NCBI GenBank assembly: GCA_029259715.1
Contig: JAJDEP010000005.1
Span: forward strand, 1-64,000
Direction of reading: 5' to 3'
DNA: 64,000 bases
DNA from: Planctomycetota bacterium
Lineage (GTDB): Bacteria; Planctomycetota; B15-G4
Translations under genes and position numbers: made by a program
Notes under the pieces: generated by a model
Told to the model about the DNA's origin: nothing
Seen by the model: the letters and a program-made list of their open reading frames with translations, nothing else
Database searches by the model: none
Shown here: piece after piece, positions 38,614 through 39,793 of the stretch
How the letters are laid out: the number at the start of each line of letters is the position of its first letter
Position numbering within the stretch: the stretch's first letter is position 1

Positions 38614-39228
38614 CTAGACGGTGGGGCGCACGACTCCCACGACGCGTCCCTTGATCACCACCTCACGGACCCGGATCGGGTCCATGGTGGCGTTGGACGG
38701 TTGCAGGCGGACATGGTCCTTCTCGCGGAAGAAGCGCTTGAGGGTGGCCTTGAGGCCGCCGGTGGACTCGTCGGGCAGCATGGCCACGACGATGTCATTG
38801 TCCCGGGCCGTGTCGACGGGCTCGACGATGACCAGATCGCCCGGGCAGATGTGGTCGTCGATCATCGATTCGCCTTCGACCCGGAGCATGTAGTGGCTCT
38901 CGTCGGGGGAAGCCAGGCTGTCGAAGGTGAAGGCTTCGTCGCTCTCGACGGCCTCGATGGCGGCGCCGGCCGCGATGCGCCCCTTGATGGCGAGGGAGGC
39001 GGGGGCAGGAGCCGCGGGTTCGTCTTCGACGAGTTGGATCGAGCGCGCCATGTTCGGCGTCTTGCGGATGGCGCCCTTCTTCTCGAGGGCGTTGACGTGC
39101 TCGTAGATCGTGATCTTGGAGACGCTGAAGTACTGCGACATCTCATCGAGGGTGGGCGAGATGCCCTTGTCGCTGATGAAGTCGCGGATGAAGGTGAGGA
39201 CGGCGAGCTGCTTCTCGGTCAGGAACAT
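38614..39228 (-). CDS. lexA: LexA repressor
   Basis: MFLTEKQLAVLTFIRDFISDKGISPTLDEMSQYFSVSKITIYEHVNALEKKGAI (wHTH); AAG cleavage site IKGRIAAGAAIEAVE; GESMIDDHI serine; LKATLKRFF lysine. Confidence 0.93.
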   Translation of the reverse strand: MFLTEKQLAVLTFIRDFISDKGISPTLDEMSQYFSVSKITIYEHVNALEKKGAIRKTPNMARSIQLVEDEPAAPAPASLAIKGRIAAGAAIEAVESDEAFTFDSLASPDESHYMLRVEGESMIDDHICPGDLVIVEPVDTARDNDIVVAMLPDESTGGLKATLKRFFREKDHVRLQPSNATMDPIRVREVVIKGRVVGVVRPTV

Positions 39229-39240
39229 AGGCGCCTTCGT

Positions 39241-39321
39241 CTACGCGTAGAGGAAGGCGACGAACATCGCGACCATGGCGCTCACGGCGGCCAGCTCTTT
39301 GCTCAGGATCTCTCGATACAT
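39241..39321 (-). CDS. Candidate 26-aa single-TM microprotein directly upstream of lexA
   Basis: ATG TAT CGA GAG ... TAG = MYREILSKELAAVSAMVAMFVAFLYA*; SD-like GGAGAG 7 nt before ATG; ends 12 nt before lexA ATG. Too short for the provided ORF track. Confidence 0.55.
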   Translation of the reverse strand: MYREILSKELAAVSAMVAMFVAFLYA

Positions 39322-39393
39322 CGTTCTGCTCTCCAAGGCGCTCGGGGGTGGCTTGCAGCGGCACGTTTCTTCCGCCCGCGCCCCGCCCGAGTC

Positions 39394-39415
39394 GTTAGGT
39401 CCACGTTACCCTAAC
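39394..39415. promoter_or_regulatory. Candidate operator palindrome GTTAGG-N10-CCTAAC
   Basis: GTTAGGTCCACGTTACCCTAAC; 6-bp inverted arms upstream of the microprotein-lexA pair; further GTTAGG at 39448-39453. Confidence 0.45.
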
Positions 39416-39793
39416 ATCGGCTGAAAACGACCGGACTTTTGGGGCTTGTTAGGATTCTTCGCTGGGCTGGCGAATTCGGCGTCGTGGGGCGGAAAGGACG
39501 CGGCGGTGTTGGCACGGGGAGTCGCCGTTCGGGCGGGCCTCGGGCGGATGTTCGGTGGAGCGGCCAGGGGGCCGGTCGGGAACCGGATCGGCATGACCGG
39601 TCGGAGGCGGTCGTCGCGGAGGCTCCCTGGGGTCGCGGCGCTTCGACGGGGCGACAGGCTGACGGCCCCGGTGTCCGATAGGAGCAGCGTGGGCGTGGCC
39701 CTTACAGGGGCATGGGCAATAGGATCATGGAGATCGCCGCAGGCGACGTGCGTGACGTCGCGCGGTCGGTGGTCAGAAGCTAAGCAGAGGAGC

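Follow-up and report, generated by a model that had tools for sequence, protein, structure and literature searches.

A conserved single-helix microprotein encoded ahead of lexA in Planctomycetota: a candidate SOS membrane effector

Immediately upstream of lexA in a 64-kb stretch of planctomycete DNA, the whole of which was analysed here and is referred to as the window, lies a reading frame of only 26 codons, raising the question of whether so short a frame encodes a protein and what that protein might do when DNA is damaged. The frame runs from 39241 to 39321 on the minus strand, ends in TAG and has the product MYREILSKELAAVSAMVAMFVAFLYA. Judged by sequence, it is served by a Shine-Dalgarno-like GGAGAG (39329..39334, minus strand) 7 nt upstream of the ATG, and its stop codon lies 12 nt from the lexA ATG at 39228. 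The product has a short, polar N-terminus (R3, E4, K8, E9) followed by a single C-terminal transmembrane segment; the last 17 residues are hydrophobic and uncharged, so that the open reading frame finishes with the helix. These details, including the coordinates, agree with those given in the initial annotation of the locus, whose direct observations were correct throughout. An apolar 15-residue segment, LAAVSAMVAMFVAFL, passes two hydrophobicity scales on sequence, and a microprotein with a single transmembrane helix is predicted with high confidence. Initiation at an upstream in-frame TTG (39336) could lengthen the product by five residues, the conserved start being the ATG. By a fixed rule requiring initiation at ATG, a length of 19-36 aa and a mean Kyte-Doolittle value >= 2.2 over the C-terminal 14 residues, this is the sole qualifying frame on either strand of the window. 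No model in Pfam or NCBIfam matches the microprotein, the only hits being weak and far under cut-off.

The downstream gene, the second cistron, is lexA (38614..39228, minus strand; TIGR00498, E=2.6e-48), encoding a 204-aa protein with a DNA-binding domain (PF01726) and an S24 peptidase domain (PF00717). A PF01726 search found this to be the only lexA in the window's genome, and no terminator was detectable in the window between the microprotein frame and lexA. In many other genomes of the phylum lexA is present two or three times (G006, G010, G011, G014, G038 and others); in G006 and G010 the microprotein is present in just one of the two lexA leaders read.

Comparison with relatives indicates that the frame is almost certainly coding and conserved. 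A lexA gene was found in four of the five other genomes of the same family, and all four have a microprotein orthologue upstream of it: MIREILTGETAAVAAMLVMLAAVLFV (G004), MIREILAKESLTVATMLMMLLAFLYI (G005), MIRQIVSSDTLALLAMLVMFLACLFI (G001) and MIRHMIPEDSLSLFGSVAAMALIFLAAVMV (G003). The orthologous core is 26-30 codons long in these genomes, with alternative upstream starts that have better ribosome-binding sites and would give 46 residues in G001 and 41 in G003. The DNA alignment of the five leaders contains two conserved islands only, namely the microprotein frame and an operator stretch, CCGATGTTAGGGTAA, that is identical in all five. An f1 profile built from these five sequences was run against 300 whole genomes and gave five clear matches, every one of them in a lexA leader (E 4e-14 to 1.5e-11), with the next best at 0.002; since the matches are the sequences behind the profile, the search contributes the absence of any second copy. 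Weaker matches elsewhere (E >= 0.002) were short stretches, mostly within longer open frames, and were discarded. In the remaining family member (G002; L100, L164, L168), operators were seen before recA, imuA and dnaE2, while lexA and the microprotein went undetected, probably owing to an assembly gap.

Coding selection was assessed with a column-permutation test on the alignments that preserves nucleotide identity. Permutation p values were 0.0004 (f1), 0.0002 (f30 and f16 alike), 0.006 (f2) and 0.008 (f10); the close pairs f33 (0.055) and f87 (0.09) did not reach significance by themselves. Codon differences in f30 comprise 38 synonymous versus 13 nonsynonymous changes, and all eight differences in an f33 pair fall at third codon positions. 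The initial annotation had proposed examining relatives for conservation of the frame and its start; both are conserved, in four of four family orthologues and with the permutation values given above.

The second conserved island bears on whether the microprotein belongs to the SOS regulon. This contains the direct repeat TTTTCAG-CCGA-TGTTAGG (39410..39427, minus strand), which has the general form TGTTMRG-N4-TGTTAGG and lies 88 nt upstream of the microprotein start codon. An inverted half-site, CCTAAC (39394..39399, minus strand), forms GTTAGG-N10-CCTAAC together with the operator; it reads CCTAAC in four of the five family genomes and CCGAAC in the fifth. This palindrome was considered as the LexA box and rejected, since in the window's genome the exact sequence is unique to the lexA leader, and the direct repeat derived from recA upstream regions took its place. 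All six family genomes have GTTAR-N6-GTTAG upstream of recA (GTTAG-N6-GTTAG in G003), and a search of the six with TGTTARGNNNNTGTTAGG, allowing one mismatch, gave 14 sites versus one for the reversed pattern. Sites besides those at recA precede imuA (G000, G002, G003) and dnaE2 (G002) and occur in the lexA leader of G003, with ImuA identified from matches under the family cut-off in G000 and G002, and from position and a RecA-like match in G003; the dnaE2 assignment is backed by an error-prone polymerase match. Among 30 leaders scored, one of which encodes a longer f28 protein, about two thirds contain a site that outscores nearly all shuffles (p <= 0.02). The operator ends 15 nt upstream of the microprotein ATG in all three f30 genomes, although the site is weak in one. 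The repeat has a period of 11, as does the alphaproteobacterial operator GTTC-N7-GTTC (PMC3323433).

We therefore regard the direct repeat upstream of the microprotein as a predicted LexA operator with high confidence. Because the same repeat also precedes recA, imuA and dnaE2, the microprotein gene very probably belongs to the SOS regulon under LexA control and opens the lexA operon as its first cistron. A second, weaker operator may be present on the plus strand (CTTTTGG-GGCT-TGTTAGG, 39436..39453), facing the opposite way; its TGTTAGG half occurs in all five genomes. Several further features of operators in the phylum were observed. Upstream of imuA and dnaE2 the direct repeat lies a few nucleotides before the likely start codons (L165:1501-1525, L164:1501-1528, L168:1501-1524, and L163 on the reverse strand), a closeness that suggests nearly leaderless SOS transcripts for these genes. 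The lexA leaders of f27 (L072, L074, L079, L082, L089) carry a different palindrome near GGTGAACA-TGTTCACC, directly upstream of the gene, and given this palindrome the operator type may differ among LexA branches of the phylum. Leaders from the same order that do not encode the microprotein (L031, L133, L135, L136, L153, L154) have GTTCG-N6-GTTCG boxes near lexA.

Similar microproteins precede lexA in many uncultured Planctomycetota outside this family as well. Of 100 Planctomycetota lexA leaders, 22 contain a frame that satisfies the fixed rule, where first-order shuffles would give 0.32; the reverse strand gave one, and only 6 of 978 control windows (0.6%) qualified. Allowing looser starts and adding 20 leaders brought the survey to 120 leaders, which represent about 60 families; 30 of them, in 11 families, encode a microprotein whose C-terminal end is a membrane helix. 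As related genomes are non-independent, a binomial figure for the enrichment is not to be read literally and the 11 families are the safer count, among which the single-leader cases f50, f76 and f86, with hydrophobicity as their sole basis, are the least certain. Examples are MKRNILGRDGAAALAMTIILALLLFL (f2, same order), MLRLIVCELPVFFCLVGVVAGALLL (f30), MWRSRVLTELPLVLSAVTLFLLVFFL (f16), MNHTNAMICELTQTALLVGIVLLAFL (f10), MRKVLGEIGSFLGIVLAVFFALLAA (f87) and MSLKNLMNEILLTCGVAALMLLALAL (f76). The usual layout consists of a few polar N-terminal residues, frequently an acidic residue right ahead of the helix, and the helix as the end of the protein. Clear matches to the ELP-type profile are likewise confined to lexA leaders. 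A branch with 92/94 support divides a 60-sequence LexA tree: the 11 lexA genes that have the microprotein all lie to one side of it, and the 32 sequences on the other side include none. Profile comparison with hhalign aligned f1 and f2 over their full length (90%) and linked f1 to the ELP type (A1 vs A2) weakly (35%). Sequence comparison thus makes common descent of all the groups plausible, and owing to the weak link to the ELP type a single origin across them is not claimed. A possible long version was noticed in f18, where a frame of about 200 aa lies directly before lexA (L018:2156-2773, minus strand, with a matching frame in L025); its product has one membrane helix, at the C-terminus, and contains a stretch, near GAxGAWxRV, that the two genomes share.

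What such a protein might act on is constrained by the division machinery of its hosts. Planctomycetes have been described as lacking FtsZ (PMC6952346), and among 300 Planctomycetota genomes none had FtsZ above cut-off; there were 11 weak matches, none of them in the window's family. Since standard FtsZ is absent, SulA-type action on FtsZ is excluded. Possible targets do exist in the two SEDS proteins (FtsW/RodA) present in most genomes; the SEDS protein examined in G000 matched FtsW better than RodA. An association between the microprotein and SEDS proteins was rejected because nearly all genomes have two.

The best overall explanation, which we hold with about even confidence, is that the microprotein is a SidA-like membrane checkpoint effector whose gene comes first in the lexA operon. 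The lexA promoter, repressed by LexA, would drive this gene; the product would be a small protein crossing the inner membrane once; and LexA self-cleavage after DNA damage would lead to the joint production of microprotein and fresh LexA. Inserted in the membrane, most likely with its N-terminus in the cytoplasm, its helix would bind a membrane-embedded cell-wall or division protein, the first candidates being the SEDS proteins FtsW/RodA, FtsI and FtsK, and division or envelope growth would be held until LexA re-represses the promoter. The checkpoint reading is favoured because there is precedent in the membrane-bound SOS division inhibitors YneA, SosA and SidA. The genes of the Gram-positive inhibitors SosA and YneA adjoin lexA (PMC6851548), YneA acts via FtsW (PMC13396833), and SidA, an inner-membrane protein of 29 residues, also acts on FtsW (PMC4211646). 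By analogy, a checkpoint role is a realistic possibility, while FtsW/FtsI as the particular target is doubtful: ftsW and ftsI are dispensable in Planctopirus limnophila (PMC6952346), which weakens the case for FtsW there, and two SEDS proteins also occur in most lineages without the microprotein, so that its presence does not track theirs. Outside close families, moreover, the microprotein sequences are too short and divergent for common descent to be proved. Of the co-transcribed SOS microprotein put forward in the initial annotation, a conserved coding frame co-oriented with lexA behind a predicted LexA operator is strongly supported; the suggested action as a division checkpoint or membrane effector, which fits by position and anatomy, is a candidate role.

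Among the closest counterparts is the SOS-induced, 29-aa protein SidA of Caulobacter crescentus, which resembles the 26-aa microprotein, as read from sequence, in size, single membrane helix and LexA control; the planctomycete operator is, moreover, a direct repeat with the period of the alphaproteobacterial GTTC-N7-GTTC. The likeness drawn here concerns size, anatomy and control, and unlike SidA the planctomycete protein is encoded by a first cistron before lexA in hosts without FtsZ. YneA, SosA and ChiZ are also SOS-controlled membrane proteins, with yneA and sosA sharing the position next to lexA, but they are longer and have an extracytoplasmic LysM domain or extension where the microprotein has its helix only; sosA is, in addition, divergent from lexA, whereas the microprotein gene is co-directional with it. 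SulA is an SOS-induced checkpoint protein, the function proposed here for the microprotein, but it is soluble and blocks FtsZ, which microprotein-bearing genomes lack above cut-off.

Among the alternatives, a membrane-acting SOS toxin or dormancy peptide, which would oligomerise, lower the membrane potential and slow growth during damage, accommodates the SOS control, the size and the single membrane helix. TisB and DinQ of E. coli are SOS-regulated single-helix peptides of similar length, typically with a polar helix face and a charged C-terminus. The microprotein segment is instead uniformly apolar, with neither an amphipathic nor a charged C-terminal part, and its gene lies before lexA. Rfam yielded no family, and hence no known structured leader RNA, in the region, and no antisense RNA partner emerged from this search or from a search for sigma-70-type antisense promoters at the locus, although a sigma-70 model says little in this phylum. 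A self-harming toxin would also be an odd partner for co-produced LexA, and we consider this reading unlikely.

Many bacterial single-helix microproteins are regulatory subunits of membrane complexes, and a KdpF/CydX-like subunit that during SOS adjusts some other complex (a transporter, a protease or an enzyme of respiration) would be in keeping with the frequent acidic residue before the helix and the small residues within it. Such a subunit is likewise unlikely, given that lexA is the only conserved neighbour seen, the upstream gene varying among genomes of the same family, and that Pfam and NCBIfam gave no match above cut-off.

The initial annotation had offered, as its alternative, a leader peptide that controls lexA translation through coupling or ribosome stalling and has no other job. 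The short distances between the microprotein stop and lexA, 12 nt in the window and 3 nt in G003, with a stop/start overlap in G076, would suit such a role, but within the same family the gap can also be 154, 164 or about 330 nt, it is 281 nt in f30, and the gap sequence is unconserved. Because the spacing varies this widely while the amino-acid sequence and hydrophobicity of the peptide are conserved, this alternative is improbable. A chance frame inside a conserved regulatory leader, conceivable in that short frames may arise by chance in GC-rich DNA, is refuted in practice by the conserved frame, the enrichment in leaders (22/100 vs 0.32) and the codon-position pattern of selection.

SOS membrane microproteins are already known as a kind of system; what appears to be new is this microprotein family, its first-cistron place before lexA and its FtsZ-less setting, and we found no report of such a microprotein in the open-access literature. 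The survey also yields a LexA operator for the lineage, supported at recA, imuA, dnaE2 and lexA, and illustrates that current family libraries miss frames of this size beside a master regulator. The microprotein offers a small and specific handle on how the FtsZ-less Planctomycetota divide and on whether they pause division once DNA is damaged, its binding partner being a candidate control point of FtsZ-less division. We tentatively suggest that the lexA-leader microproteins could form an ancient family serving as the SOS checkpoint of many Planctomycetota by stopping an FtsZ-independent division or envelope-growth machine; if so, whatever they target would point to a part through which that machine is controlled.
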